DNA of 47,568 bases, taken from positions 1 to 47,568 of the forward strand of contig NZ_NRJF01000029.1 in assembly GCF_003585965.1 (NCBI RefSeq), written 5' to 3'. The notes under the pieces are model-generated. The model was given only the letters and a program-made list of their open reading frames with translations. It had not been told where the DNA came from and did no database searches. Every line of letters starts with the position of its first letter. Position 1 is the first letter of the stretch. Below are positions 21,462 through 25,812 of the stretch, piece by piece. The position numbers were made by a program, and so were the translations under genes. Source of the DNA: Psittacicella gerlachiana. GTDB lineage: Bacteria > Pseudomonadota > Gammaproteobacteria > Enterobacterales > Psittacicellaceae.

Positions 21462-21472
21462 TCCCAAAAGCA

Positions 21473-21511
21473 AAAGAGAGAAGTCGGTTACTTGAACAGA
21501 CTTCTCTCTTT
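21473..21511. terminator. Bidirectional terminator between the GNAT gene and glycerophosphotransferase gene 1
   Basis: AAAGAGAGAAGTC (21473-21485) pairs with GACTTCTCTCTTT (21499-21511) around 13 nt. The GAGAAGTC/GACTTCTC core is shared with the terminator at 24087. Confidence 0.85.
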
Positions 21512-21515
21512 GCCT

Positions 21516-22727
21516 TTAAGCTTTTTGTTGTAAAAGTTTAATAAAAGTATCCTTCTCGGTTTCGGTGCTTCCGATTAAATACTCTTTAGCTTGTTTTCTT
21601 TGTTCTTGCTTATAATCATCCCCACCTAAAACGCGTTCTAATTCACTATATAGCTCTTCTAAAGTTGACCAAGTATAAGCATAATAATCATAACTCATAT
21701 TACTCTTAGAAATTTGGATTTTCTTATCTTTAGGCACATACACAAATATAGGTCCATTAGCAGCTATACAATCTGAAACCACTCCTGAAATATCACAAAG
21801 AAAAATATTTGATTCCACTAATACTTCATTTAAAGGTTGCAATTTATTGACAACTTTATGCTCCACCCCTTTTTCATCAAGAGATTGAGAAATCTGCTCT
21901 TCAATATTTAATAAAAGCTTATCACGATTTCCAGTCATAGGATGAAACTTTGCATTTACCGGAAGCTTAAATTTTTCAGCAATAAAACTAAGAATCTTTG
22001 TTGCATGTTTTACTGAAGAGTAATTTGTTTCCTCAAAAACTCCTTCCCAAGTTGGGAGGTATAAAACACTAGGCTTTCTCTCTTGCCAATTAGTTTTAGT
22101 TTGCTCAATTACTGCTTTTAAGGAAGGACGCCCTACTTTAACAAAATCGGTGCTAATTGTAAAACCGGCATTGGCAAATCTATCGATATGAGCTTGACCG
22201 GCAACCCAAATTTGATCATAAACTCTAAAGAATTTATGTGCACTTGAGGTCTTATCACTATCTCCATGCCCAATAAAAATATGTTCAAATTGAGTATAAC
22301 GTAAAGTATGAATTAAATTTGCGGTATTTGACGGATAAAGAATATACTTTAAGCTACTAATCTTTTCCACCACTTGCTCTATATCATCAATTCTTTTACA
22401 AAAGACCACATGTAAGTATGGATAATTTTCTTTAAGCCAATTAAACATTTCTTTATTTCTTACAAGAATAAAGAAATTAATTTTTGCTTTACATAAATAA
22501 GGAATCCATAAAGCAACTTGATTTGGACCAGCTTTTATACTTTCTCCAGTATGCACGGCATGGGTATAAGAAATAAAAGGATTAAAGTTGTGCATTTCTA
22601 AAGTTGTAGCTTTCGTTTTAGATTTAGGTTTAGCAGTTTTAACTCCAATATTTTGATTAACCCTTTTAGTTACCATATCCTTAAAAAATAACTTCGGATT
22701 TTTTACTAATTTACTCAGCTTACTCAT
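21516..22727 (-). CDS. TagB/TagF-like (CDP-glycerol) glycerophosphotransferase, copy 1
   Basis: A GT-B-type transferase of the CDP-glycerol glycerophosphotransferase family, which builds or starts glycerol-phosphate polymers of cell-surface glycans. Blocks typical of the family are IFIGHGDSDK (HGxxxK-like site), RVYDQIWVAGQAHIDRF, VKVGRPSL, VLYLPTWEG, KFHPMTGNRD, FLCDISGVVSDCIAA and NGPIFVYVPKD. The 403-residue protein opens MSKLSKLVKNPKLFFKDMV, a basic amphipathic start that may touch the membrane. GAGGTC precedes the ATG. It is strongly similar along its length to the gene at 24121-25329. It lies 18 bp downstream of the propeller-like gene, so they form one operon behind leader RNA copy 1. 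The real donor is not proven. Confidence 0.78.
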   Translation of the reverse strand: MSKLSKLVKNPKLFFKDMVTKRVNQNIGVKTAKPKSKTKATTLEMHNFNPFISYTHAVHTGESIKAGPNQVALWIPYLCKAKINFFILVRNKEMFNWLKENYPYLHVVFCKRIDDIEQVVEKISSLKYILYPSNTANLIHTLRYTQFEHIFIGHGDSDKTSSAHKFFRVYDQIWVAGQAHIDRFANAGFTISTDFVKVGRPSLKAVIEQTKTNWQERKPSVLYLPTWEGVFEETNYSSVKHATKILSFIAEKFKLPVNAKFHPMTGNRDKLLLNIEEQISQSLDEKGVEHKVVNKLQPLNEVLVESNIFLCDISGVVSDCIAANGPIFVYVPKDKKIQISKSNMSYDYYAYTWSTLEELYSELERVLGGDDYKQEQRKQAKEYLIGSTETEKDTFIKLLQQKA

Positions 22728-22745
22728 GATGACCTCAATATCAAA

Positions 22746-23756
22746 TTAGTTTTTCTCTACTCTCTCTAATAATCCTTTTAACTGCTGATCTAAAGAACGT
22801 CTATATAAGAGGCTAACTCGTTTTCGATGATCTCCAACTACTATTTGGATATAAATATAATTATCGACTAAGGAGATCCCCTCAGCTTCCCAATGCTTCT
22901 CTTTCCCACTCTTTAAAGCTATATCCTTTCCCGCTTCAATAAATTCACGTCCCAGTAATTTTCCATCCAAAGTATAAGTCAACAAAAGCTTGGGAAAATT
23001 TATGTCATATAACCCAAGAAAAACATAGATCAATTTACCGTCACTAGCTATACCTTGCACGGGATACTGTTTAGAATTACTTAAAGGATCTAAAAGAAAT
23101 TGCGAAATAAACTTCTCACTCCAATCTAAGGTGGTTAGTTCTTGAGCTTTTAAATCCCATACCCTTAGATATTTTTGTTGAGCTTTTTCACCTACTGCAA
23201 TTAGATATTCTCCCGTAGTAGCAATCGCTGGGGTAGTATTTCCTCGCTCTTGAAAATCAGGAGAAAATAAACGAACCCGTAAAATATTGCTTGGAGCTTG
23301 ATTTTCAAGATATTGAAATCTTACTGCATAGTGTCCATAGTTAGTTATCCCAAATCCAGCTGATGTCCAAAAGTACACTTGCGAATCAATCAGTTGTACA
23401 CTAATTCCTTGGTGTCCTAAAAGCTGACTTCCTATACTTGAAGATTTTCCTTGAATGGTATACGTCTGAGGATCATAAACGTACTTGGTAATACAGGAAA
23501 ATCCTGTATTACAAACTCTTTGAGAATAGGCTTGCTCTAACTGAGGTAATAAAACAAAACCTTGCTCTACATTACCAACTCTACTTCCTACTGGTTGAAG
23601 TTGATGCACTAATTGCCAATTATGATTGCTTTTAGTTTGTTCTTGTAAAGTCAAAGGCGGTAATTGCATTACCTGTGATCTTAAAGATAGCCTAGGATTG
23701 AAATAAACCACAGCAAATAAACAAAGCAAAAGAATAAGGAATATAATTTTTTGCAT
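22746..23756 (-). CDS. Membrane-anchored propeller-like protein, possibly TagC-like
   Basis: This gene has no certain family. An N-terminal hydrophobic segment (IIFLILLLCLFAVVYF) is a signal anchor or uncleaved signal. The rest is beta-rich, with repeating motifs of the type GxLLxYTLDGKLL, SDGKLIYVFLG and EAEGISLVDNYIYIQI, suggesting a beta-propeller. The closing HWEAEGISLVDNYIYIQIVV resembles the last blade of TagC/P68-type propellers found with wall teichoic acid genes; this match is by eye and weak. Cys residues near 82 and 88 could form a disulfide outside the cytoplasm. It is first in the operon with transferase copy 1 and sits 77 bp after the terminator of leader RNA copy 1. A role in handling a glycerol-phosphate polymer outside the inner membrane is inferred from context. 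Confidence 0.55.
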   Translation of the reverse strand: MQKIIFLILLLCLFAVVYFNPRLSLRSQVMQLPPLTLQEQTKSNHNWQLVHQLQPVGSRVGNVEQGFVLLPQLEQAYSQRVCNTGFSCITKYVYDPQTYTIQGKSSSIGSQLLGHQGISVQLIDSQVYFWTSAGFGITNYGHYAVRFQYLENQAPSNILRVRLFSPDFQERGNTTPAIATTGEYLIAVGEKAQQKYLRVWDLKAQELTTLDWSEKFISQFLLDPLSNSKQYPVQGIASDGKLIYVFLGLYDINFPKLLLTYTLDGKLLGREFIEAGKDIALKSGKEKHWEAEGISLVDNYIYIQIVVGDHRKRVSLLYRRSLDQQLKGLLERVEKN

Positions 23757-23833
23757 TTAATTTCTACTCTGTTTAAATTTAAGAGTACTTAAGTTTTCAT
23801 AGATCTAACTTTAGTTTAAATTTTGTCCACGAC

Positions 23834-23860
23834 AAAAGGGAGTGGTAAAAAACCACTCCC
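23834..23860 (-). terminator. Terminator at the end of leader RNA copy 1
   Basis: Minus-strand GGGAGTGGT and ACCACTCCC (23852-23860 and 23838-23846 on the plus strand) with a T-rich loop, followed by TTTTGTC. It lies between the promoter and the genes it would serve. Confidence 0.8.
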
Positions 23861-23887
23861 CTGCTGAGAAATTAATAAATTAAGCTA

Positions 23888-23897
23888 CCCCCCCCCC
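23888..23897 (-). repeat. Ten-base homopolymer (G on the RNA strand), copy 1
   Basis: Ten C on the plus strand, G on the transcribed strand, inside the leader RNA between hairpin 2 and the terminator. Tracts of this kind slip during replication and vary in length in many host-associated bacteria. Confidence 0.85.
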
Positions 23898-24004
23898 AGC
23901 AAAAATCCCTTAATAAACACATATTTATTAAGATTTTACTGAGAGGCGATAATAAATAGCGATTATAATACCGATTACAACAGCTATTATTCTCAGTCGG
24001 GGTG

Positions 24005-24013
24005 ATTATAGCA
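24005..24013 (-). promoter_or_regulatory. Extended -10 promoter of leader RNA copy 1
   Basis: Minus-strand TGCTATAAT (24013 down to 24005). The predicted start, G at 23998, falls at the base of hairpin 1, so the RNA would begin with its stem. Confidence 0.6.
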
Positions 24014-24086
24014 ATTAAGCTTATTGAGAAAATATTTTTGTCGCCTATATTATAATCGATCTTAAGAAGAAGATGAAAATTATTAG

Positions 24087-24114
24087 AAAAGAGAAGTCGC
24101 ACGACTTCTCTTTT
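24087..24114 (-). terminator. Terminator of glycerophosphotransferase gene 2
   Basis: AAAAGAGAAGTCG and CGACTTCTCTTTT form a 12-13-bp stem with a tiny loop. It directly follows the stop codon (TAA at 24123-24121) and marks the upstream end of leader repeat copy 1. Confidence 0.85.
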
Positions 24115-24120
24115 TGGGAT

Positions 24121-25329
24121 TTAAGCTTCTTGTTGTAAAAGTTTAATAAAGGTATCACTTTCAGTTTCGGTACTACCAATTAAATACTCTTTAGCTTTTT
24201 TTCTTTGCTCCTGTTTATAATCGTCTCCTCCTAAAACTCGTGCTAATTCAGCATATAGTTCTTCAAGAGTTGACCAAGTATAAGCATAATCATCATAACT
24301 CATATTACTCTTAGATATTTGCAAATGCTTATCCTTAGGAACATAAACAAAAATTGGACCATTAGCGGCAATACATTCAGAAACTACGGCTGAAATATCA
24401 CAAATAAAAATATTTGCTTGCCCGATGCCTTCATTAATAGGTTCTAATTTACTCACGACTTTAGCTTCTATCCCCTTAGCTAAAAGAGATTTTATAACAT
24501 TAGCTTCAATATTGTCTAAGAAGGAATCACGAGTACCTGTTAAAGGATGAAATTTTACGCTAACCGGTAAATTTAATTTCTCTCGCACATGAGTTAGAAT
24601 ACTCCCCGCATGTTTTACAGAAGAGTAATTAGCTTCTTCCAAGACTCCCTCCCAAGTTGGTAAGTATAAAACATTATAGTTGCGCTCGTGCCATGCTTCT
24701 TTAGTTTGTACAATTACTTCTTTTAATGATGGTCTTCCTACTTTAACAAACTCCGATGCTATACTAAAACCCGCATTCGCAAATCTATCTATATGCGCTT
24801 GACCGGCAACCCAAATTTGATCATATACCCTAAAGAACTTATGTGCACTTGCTGATTTATCACTATCACCATGTCCAATAAAAATATGCTTATACTCAGA
24901 ATAACGTAAGGTATGAATTAAATTTGCAGTATTTGAGGGATATAAAATAGAATGCACCGAGTCAATATTGGTGAGTAATTGCTCTACATCTTGATCTCTT
25001 TTACAATAAGCAACAGATACAAAAGGATAGGTCTCTTTAAGCCAATTTAACATCTCTCTATTTCTTACAAGGATAAAGAAATTTATTTTGGCTTTACAAA
25101 AATAAGGAATCCATAACACCAAATGATTTGGTCCTGCTTTAATAGTTTCACCTGTATGCAAAACATGAGTATACTTATTTAACACATTAAAATTATGTAA
25201 CTCGAGAGTTTTTTTTGATTCTTTTTTCTGAGCTGTTGCTTGAGAGCTATCTCCCTTGTTAATACGCTTATTTACCATATCCTTAAAAAATAACTTTGGA
25301 CTTTTTATTAATTTACTCAACTTACTCAT
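24121..25329 (-). CDS. TagB/TagF-like (CDP-glycerol) glycerophosphotransferase, copy 2
   Basis: A paralogue of the gene at 21516-22727 with the same blocks: IFIGHGDSDKSASAHKF, VYDQIWVAGQAHIDRF, VGRPSL, LYLPTWEG, KFHPLTG, FICDISAVVSECIAANG. The N-terminus aligns exactly (MSKLSKLIKSPKLFFKDMV), and GAGGTC stands at the same place before the ATG in both. The ATG at 25329 is therefore chosen over an in-frame ATG 17 codons upstream, giving 402 residues. The central substrate region differs most between the two, so they may use different acceptors. It is a single-gene unit behind leader RNA copy 2, with about 200 nt between the leader terminator and the ATG. Confidence 0.8.
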   Translation of the reverse strand: MSKLSKLIKSPKLFFKDMVNKRINKGDSSQATAQKKESKKTLELHNFNVLNKYTHVLHTGETIKAGPNHLVLWIPYFCKAKINFFILVRNREMLNWLKETYPFVSVAYCKRDQDVEQLLTNIDSVHSILYPSNTANLIHTLRYSEYKHIFIGHGDSDKSASAHKFFRVYDQIWVAGQAHIDRFANAGFSIASEFVKVGRPSLKEVIVQTKEAWHERNYNVLYLPTWEGVLEEANYSSVKHAGSILTHVREKLNLPVSVKFHPLTGTRDSFLDNIEANVIKSLLAKGIEAKVVSKLEPINEGIGQANIFICDISAVVSECIAANGPIFVYVPKDKHLQISKSNMSYDDYAYTWSTLEELYAELARVLGGDDYKQEQRKKAKEYLIGSTETESDTFIKLLQQEA

Positions 25330-25527
25330 TAAGACCTCTATATTCGTTAGTTTCTTAACTGCTGATTTAAAGTACTTCAATCTCGAAGATAAATTGAGTT
25401 TTTTGACTCCCTACATCGGTGATTGCAACCACAAAAAACCTTTCCTTTACTTATACGATTATCCTTATTACAGCGTATAAGCTTTGAGCAATTTACTCCA
25501 AACTTTACTTTAAATTTTGTCCACGAC
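25330..25527. other. Spacer between leader RNA copy 2 and transferase gene 2
   Basis: No convincing gene is seen. It holds one perfect inverted repeat at 25450-25481 and an imperfect palindrome (GTGGTTGCAATCAC on the minus strand, 12 of 14 positions symmetrical) near 25422-25435. It has no equivalent in unit 1, where the gap is only 77 bp. Confidence 0.5.
25450..25481. repeat. Inverted repeat between leader and transferase gene 2
   Basis: CTTATACG (25450-25457) and CGTATAAG (25474-25481) are perfect 8-bp arms with a 16-nt loop. It could be a protein-binding site or an mRNA hairpin. Confidence 0.6.
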
Positions 25528-25554
25528 AAAAGGGAGTGGTAAAAAACCACTCCC
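25528..25554 (-). terminator. Terminator at the end of leader RNA copy 2
   Basis: Identical to the copy 1 terminator: GGGAGTGGT/ACCACTCCC stem, then TTTT on the minus strand. Confidence 0.8.
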
Positions 25555-25581
25555 CTGCTGAGAAATTAATAAATTAAGCTA

Positions 25582-25591
25582 CCCCCCCCCC
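25582..25591 (-). repeat. Ten-base homopolymer (G on the RNA strand), copy 2
   Basis: Same ten-base tract at the same place in leader copy 2. Confidence 0.85.
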
Positions 25592-25698
25592 AGCAAAAAC
25601 TCCTTAATAAACATCTATTTATCAAGATTTTACTGAGAGGCGATAATAAATAACTATCATAATCTCTACTACAATAGCTATTATTCTCAGTCGGGGTG

Positions 25699-25707
25699 AT
25701 TATAGCA
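25699..25707 (-). promoter_or_regulatory. Extended -10 promoter of leader RNA copy 2
   Basis: Minus-strand TGCTATAAT (25707 down to 25699), identical to copy 1, with predicted start at 25692. Confidence 0.6.
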
Positions 25708-25781
25708 ATTAATCTTATCGAGAAAATATATTTAGATGCCTATATTATAATCGATCTTAAGAAGAAGATGAAAATTATTAG

Positions 25782-25808
25782 AAAAGAGAAGCCTTACGAC
25801 TTCTCTTT
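25782..25808 (-). terminator. Terminator of the metal-binding protein gene
   Basis: GAGAAG (25786-25791) pairs with CTTCTC in a stem flanked by an A run and a T run. It is the weaker counterpart of the terminator at 24087 and part of leader repeat copy 2. Confidence 0.6.
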
Positions 25809-25812
25809 CTCA

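Follow-up and report, generated by a model that had tools for sequence, protein, structure and literature searches.

The window analysed here is a 47,568-nt contig of 35% GC from Psittacicella gerlachiana, whose assembly (2.23 Mb in 301 contigs) is 89% complete. On its minus strand the order is znuA (26709-25813), element copy 2, gtf2, element copy 1, a beta-propeller gene and gtf1 (Table 1). The two gtf genes are 72% identical and encode glycerophosphotransferase-like proteins, the match of gtf2 to Pfam PF04464 being weak and under the cut-off. The propeller gene falls just short of the PF21311 cut-off, and its paralogue in the capsule locus described below exceeds it (5.4e-8). A 5-bladed propeller protein of this kind, with a phage receptor-binding platform-like domain (PF21311), lies beside polymerase genes both here (22746-23756) and in the capsule locus (L071, 4976-6103).

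These three genes and both copies of the element occupy ~4.3 kb (21462-25812) between znuA and a GNAT gene, and are absent from this position in three named Psittacicella genomes. The znuA genes of these relatives are 80-87% identical to that of the window, and the DNA beyond matches the acetyltransferase-aroB side of the window while the inserted genes have no counterpart there; znuA of P. melopsittaci has the acetyltransferase as its direct neighbour downstream. Because the named relatives lack the inserted genes beyond znuA, the ~4.3 kb stretch is, among the genomes compared, an insertion specific to this genome. Moreover, a GAGAAGTC-type terminator follows each of znuA, gtf2 and gtf1, and what is left of a propeller gene, a piece of its 3′ end, lies upstream of gtf2. 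These features indicate that a unit of leader, propeller gene, gtf gene and terminator was duplicated in tandem, with subsequent loss of one propeller gene.

Table 1. Positions of the element copies, their parts and the neighbouring genes (window coordinates unless a contig is named).
Feature	Position	Strand	Basis or remark
Copy 1, predicted ~165-nt structured RNA	23834..23998	-	fold z = -7.35; covariance model match 205 bits; 5′ end predicted from the extended -10
Copy 2, predicted ~165-nt structured RNA	25528..25692	-	fold z = -6.57; covariance model match 203.6 bits
Copy 3, strongly diverged, head of capsule operon	G000:C146:10184-10420	same orientation as genes	G-tract and terminator module, fold
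Extended -10 promoter-like TGCTATAAT, copy 1	24005..24013	-	sequence
Extended -10 promoter-like TGCTATAAT, copy 2	25699..25707	-	sequence
48-nt block without differences between copies 1 and 2, containing a further TATAAT (24054-24049)	24043..24090	-	alignments
Hairpin 1, copy 1	23955..23988	-	8/13 RNA differences between copies, pairing kept
Hairpin 2 (P3), copy 1	23889..23949	-	C/U-rich arm CGCCUCUCAG (23948-23939) pairs with G-tract, probability 0.97-1.0
G10 tract, copy 1	23888..23897	-	sequence and genome-wide tract list
G10 tract, copy 2	25582..25591	-	sequence
Closing stem P1, 3′ strand UUCUCAG, copy 1	23864..23870	-	pairs with CUGAGAA 23996-23990; abuts terminator
Intrinsic terminator, copy 1 (GGGAGTGGTTTTTTACCACTCCCTTTT)	23834..23862	-	d-score +15.5
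Intrinsic terminator, copy 2, sequence identical to copy 1	25528..25556	-	d-score +15.5
gtf2, glycerophosphotransferase-like, directly downstream of copy 2	24121..25329	-	ATG at 25329; ORF listing reaches TTG 25380
Beta-propeller protein gene, immediately after copy 1	22746..23756	-	PF21311 6e-5, just under cut-off
gtf1, glycerophosphotransferase-like, after propeller gene	21516..22727	-	PF04464 1.7e-6
Propeller-gene 3′-end remnant, upstream of gtf2	25355..25381	-	85% identity over 27 nt; counterpart 22778-22804
Terminator of preceding gene gtf2, bidirectional-looking hairpin	24087..24114	-	similar hairpins after znuA (25782-25808) and gtf1 (21472-21511)

Structure and substitution pattern of copies 1 and 2

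The original prediction, made from the sequence of the window alone, described twin repeats at 23817-24114 and 25511-25808. Alignment confirmed their positions, with 93% identity over 233 nt and 92% over 78 nt. Each repeat opens with ~27 bp (24087-24114 and 25782-25808) that lie outside the RNA and are the terminators of gtf2 and znuA. The proposed run from an extended -10 through hairpins to a terminator was also recovered on the minus strand, as TGCTATAAT, hairpin 1, hairpin 2 and a terminator, GGGAGTGG..CCACTCCCTTTT. What that prediction had not mentioned is a tract of ten Gs inside hairpin 2. In order, the predicted RNA comprises a closing stem (CUGAGAA/UUCUCAG), hairpin 1 and hairpin 2, in which a C/U-rich arm pairs with the ten Gs; a linker of ~17 nt then leads to the terminator.

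Segments of 171 nt folded at -63.2 (copy 1) and -64.8 kcal/mol (copy 2), and 0/200 shuffles were as stable; the opposite strand reached just -41 and -35 kcal/mol. The d'Aubenton-Carafa score of both terminators is likewise high on the minus strand (Table 1) against -37.7 on the plus strand. Before the G-tract is synthesised, the predicted 5′ CUGAGAA pairs instead with CUCUCAG of the C/U-rich arm, so the G-tract is the strand that rearranges the predicted fold. A second TATAAT block 44 nt farther upstream leaves the 5′ end at 23998 uncertain. A transcript starting from it is predicted to fold differently near its 5′ end, and P1 forms only with a start near 23998. The 48-nt invariant block upstream of the RNA may be the true or an alternative promoter, or a regulator site.

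The stem changes listed in the original prediction are exact. From copy 1 to copy 2, one G-C and two A-U pairs of hairpin 1 become G-U and one G-U pair becomes A-U, and its distal stem gains a U-A pair (9 pairs with loop AGAG in copy 2, 8 pairs with loop CGGT in copy 1); hairpin 2 shows one A-U to G-U change. All 58 pairs of copy 1 are preserved in copy 2. The two RNAs differ by 13 substitutions, 5 of them in stems, and these are all one-sided with G-U; 0 are compensatory. Under random placement the probability of keeping all 58 pairs is P = 0.0014, almost wholly because substitutions avoid stems (5 observed versus 9.1 expected, P = 0.012). Once the number and type of stem substitutions are fixed, keeping every pair has P = 0.37. 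The earlier argument that a passive duplication would not keep pairing is therefore weak: with 0 compensatory changes and this conditional probability, a homogenised block would look similar.

This bears on whether the copies are simply intergenic DNA that was recently duplicated or gene-converted, with hairpins that are incidental and serve no RNA function. Copies 1 and 2 do belong to a gene unit that was duplicated in tandem and left a propeller remnant, pairing retention is unexceptional by the conditional measure, and differences are about equally frequent in the promoter part (6/93 positions) and in the whole RNA-to-end part (14/190). The element differs by ~7% between copies versus 48% at four-fold degenerate sites of gtf1 and gtf2, a contrast that speaks for constraint but that block gene conversion could also yield. 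Conversion alone, however, does not explain the uneven placement of the differences, of which 1/20 falls from the G-tract onward (P = 0.004). This unevenness, the avoidance of stems, the extreme folding z-scores and the retention of the module by a strongly diverged third copy in the same kind of position make a functionless block improbable.

A third copy at the head of a capsule operon

Contig C146 carries a capsule locus whose first gene is the one most like gtf2 (55% identity) among those elsewhere in the genome. This locus encodes a polymerase, a fused ribitol-5-phosphate cytidylyltransferase/reductase, a second transferase, a propeller protein, a polysaccharide export protein, a BexC/CtrB/KpsE protein and an ABC transporter. 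The region upstream of the operon contains TGTGGGGGGGGGGGG, a similar linker and AGGGGGAGTGATTTGAAATAAATCACTCCCTTTT. Copy 3 thus placed has three parts in common with copies 1 and 2: the G-tract (G12, versus G10 in those copies), a C/U-rich arm that pairs with the tract, and a GGGAGTG...CACTCCCTTTT terminator.

The pattern GGGGGGGG-N10-40-AGGGG-N0-4-AGTG has 3 matches in this genome, exactly the three copies, and 0 in the reversed control or in the three other Psittacicella genomes. A stricter pattern of G-tract and terminator had matches in 0/368 other gammaproteobacterial genomes (369 of the class were searched); both patterns were built from the copies themselves and so show rarity, not independent discovery. 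A covariance model of copies 1 and 2 ranks the copy 3 site third, at 21.5 bits (E = 0.0064 in 202 kb, 0.07 genome-wide). Across 296 genomes of the order its matches lie only in this genome, with none in the three other species, and no such element was seen by eye in the capsule-locus intergenic regions of two other species.

Copy 3 folds with z = -3.96 in the same layout as copies 1 and 2. A 5′ strand pairs just before the terminator, with a probability of about 0.8-0.95 for most end choices, and is followed by the first hairpin; CCCCCUCC pairs with the G-tract at probability 0.98. Its terminator is borderline (d = -0.6). In the covariance model alignment with copies 1 and 2, six pairs are changed on both sides against a shuffle mean of 2.0, although these count for less, since this alignment was itself fitted to the structure and its placement of the 5′ strand departs from the free fold. 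We mainly trust the terminator stem, where a change from G-C to A-U is anchored by identical flanks. In a plain alignment of copies 1 and 3 without the G-tract the score was not above shuffles, so the homology of copy 3 rests on the module of G-tract and terminator and on position. The idea that copy 3 has the promoter block of copies 1/2 was rejected: 53/1332 real windows score as well.

Evidence for a proposed leader and its alternatives

All three copies (3/3) lie directly upstream of capsule-type genes and in the same orientation. The link that the original prediction drew to glycerophosphotransferase-type genes holds and is much strengthened by copy 3. A promoter-like TGCTATAAT and a gene-strand terminator, the parts expected of an attenuator, are recognisable in copies 1 and 2, and the terminator of copy 3 is borderline. 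Pattern scans, which are weak evidence, showed no minus-strand promoter-like site in the stretch that separates the terminator from the gene at copies 1 and 2; in copy 3 they found same-strand promoter-like sites inside the RNA and after the terminator (10047-10019). The position of the element appears to favour a leader over a free small RNA, and so does the result that at copies 1 and 2 no promoter-like site follows the terminator.

The possibility that these are three paralogous stand-alone sRNAs, each with its own promoter and terminator and acting in trans, for example via the single-stranded linker or the G-tract, has to be set against this. Tandem sibling small RNAs are common, and the predicted promoter, compact fold and terminator are self-contained. 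Moreover, the terminator forms at a probability of ~1 in all copies and no antiterminator competing with it occurs in the folding ensemble (pairing of G-tract with terminator 0.0 in all copies). The model thus offers no mutually exclusive antiterminator such as an RNA-only, riboswitch-like switch would use. Against sRNAs acting in trans, the G-tract is buried in a predicted helix, 3/3 copies immediately precede one gene class in the same orientation, and the genes downstream of copies 1 and 2 have no promoter-like site of their own. We regard stand-alone sRNAs as the main rival reading, though a rather unlikely one.

A leader peptide could also be envisaged. In the pil1 locus of Streptococcus gallolyticus, variable GCAGA repeats in the leader change the length of a leader peptide, and a premature stem-loop terminator controls a surface-structure operon (PMC3894217). 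By the same logic, slippage of the G-tract would shift the frame of a short ORF, and ribosomes would reach the terminator at some tract lengths only. Short ORFs do cross the G-tract in all copies, and some present-frame ORFs stop short of the terminator stem by 11 nt (copies 1 and 2) or 1 nt (copy 3). However, start codons, frames and peptides differ among the copies, so that there is no conserved ORF; the candidate start lies inside the stem, and a Shine-Dalgarno-like AAGG is found in copies 1 and 2 only, before a TTG. We therefore think a pil1-like peptide attenuator very improbable. The likeness to pil1 lies in a slippable leader tract upstream of a terminator and surface-structure genes, and the difference in a homopolymeric G-tract that forms one strand of an RNA stem, with no conserved peptide, in place of GCAGA repeats and a peptide.

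JUMPstart/ops leaders, which recruit RfaH, are similarly non-coding and stand at the head of capsule operons, as this element does, and known ones are linked to control of transcription elongation. Copies 1 and 2 carry GGGGGTAGCTT, one mismatch from the ops core. However, the base that differs is the C of the GGCGGTAG core, the motif is absent from copy 3, one-mismatch matches in the window are near chance (7 versus 4.1), and the element has a strong terminator. Moreover, each genome with a match has a single NusG-family gene and no second one, bearing in mind that this genome lacks ~10%. Neither an intact GGCGGTAG core nor an RfaH gene is apparent, and an ops leader, already disfavoured, is barely credible.

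The structure, strand, terminator, position and three copies of the element are given by sequence and computation. On these grounds the best reading of the predicted RNA is a new cis-acting leader without a described family. We lean towards each copy being the 5′ leader of a capsule-type unit and a predicted transcription attenuator with a probably slippable G-tract. Transcription would start at the promoter adjoining the element, and the nascent RNA would fold into a compact junction of hairpin 1 and hairpin 2, the latter formed by the C/U-rich arm and the G-tract. Most transcripts would end at the intrinsic terminator just before the gene, which would be expressed through controlled read-through, that is, transcription attenuation. 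Transcription of the element, regulation of read-through, an effect of tract length and the order of the copying events are inferred. The element would originally have headed the capsule operon, or a unit like it, then been copied with a polymerase gene into the znuA-GNAT interval, and been duplicated there again as part of the unit.

The G-tract would tune this attenuation, probably by slipping. Core pairing between the tract and its upstream arm has a probability of at least 0.97 in all three copies, although such pairing is not unique: the copies rank 1, 5 and 6 among the 28 G-tract sites of the genus. An uninterrupted G strand faces a mixed C/U partner (CGCCUCUC in copies 1/2, CCCCCUCC in copy 3), which suggests slippage of the tract or selection acting on it. 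The homopolymeric tracts are long enough to slip (G10, G10 and G12), these lengths coming from three copies in one genome of the species and from one assembly in which they were possibly misread. In a bolder form of the attenuator reading, tract length would alter the leader fold, as opposed to a reading frame or promoter spacing, and would set capsule-type expression at three loci as a phase-variable switch; we consider this unlikely.

Two further types of known system invite comparison. In Helicobacter pylori tlpB-hp0102, the length of a poly-G repeat in the mRNA leader sets expression gradually, and the trans-acting sRNA RepG binds the tract (PMC8295292). Both that system and the Psittacicella element place a poly-G tract in the leader of surface-polysaccharide genes; however, RepG binds in trans, whereas the Psittacicella tract pairs in cis with the C/U-rich arm and a terminator follows. 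Neither pil1 nor tlpB-hp0102, as described, has its tract within a regulatory stem together with a terminator. Classical attenuators and terminator riboswitches resemble the element in having a structured leader and then an intrinsic terminator before the gene, but in the Psittacicella element no leader peptide, antiterminator, ligand or Rfam match was found. If this is confirmed, the capsule-type genes of this bird-associated genus would be under the control of an RNA element not described before. A G-tract within a regulatory stem, if true, would join phase variation to RNA attenuation in a manner unmatched by the precedents found.

Database searches and G-tracts elsewhere in the genus

The original prediction knew of no RNA family with this layout, and we found none: there was no Rfam match at the gathering score and none credible at E up to 10, the best sub-threshold matches being chance-like. 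A DNA search with the whole element gave no match in plasmid and phage collections, and no paper on gene regulation in the genus was evident by title in the literature searched. A looser pattern applied to viral contigs gave many hits among the matches listed and was too unspecific for use. One DNA match in a related species (G002, L031) was attributed to chance: it is an AT-rich hairpin close to pheS and has neither a G-tract nor a terminator. In the same genome (G002:C75, L134 7516 region) a G9 tract lies ~170 nt upstream of a kpsE-like capsule gene, with no evident terminator or C-rich arm, and was not counted as a member. This capsule locus looks decayed, with long ORF-free stretches.

G-tracts of at least 9 nt also occur elsewhere in the genus, some of them upstream of autotransporter-like and capsule genes, a distribution that looks as expected of slipped-strand contingency loci. 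Lastly, sister species G001 and G003 carry non-coding G9-G12 tracts (L102, L115, L117-L121), several in contexts like AAATCAACAA..GTC-Gn-TAAATT. At least one of them (L115) has an autotransporter-like gene ~350 nt downstream, and these tracts possibly represent a family of phase-variable control regions.
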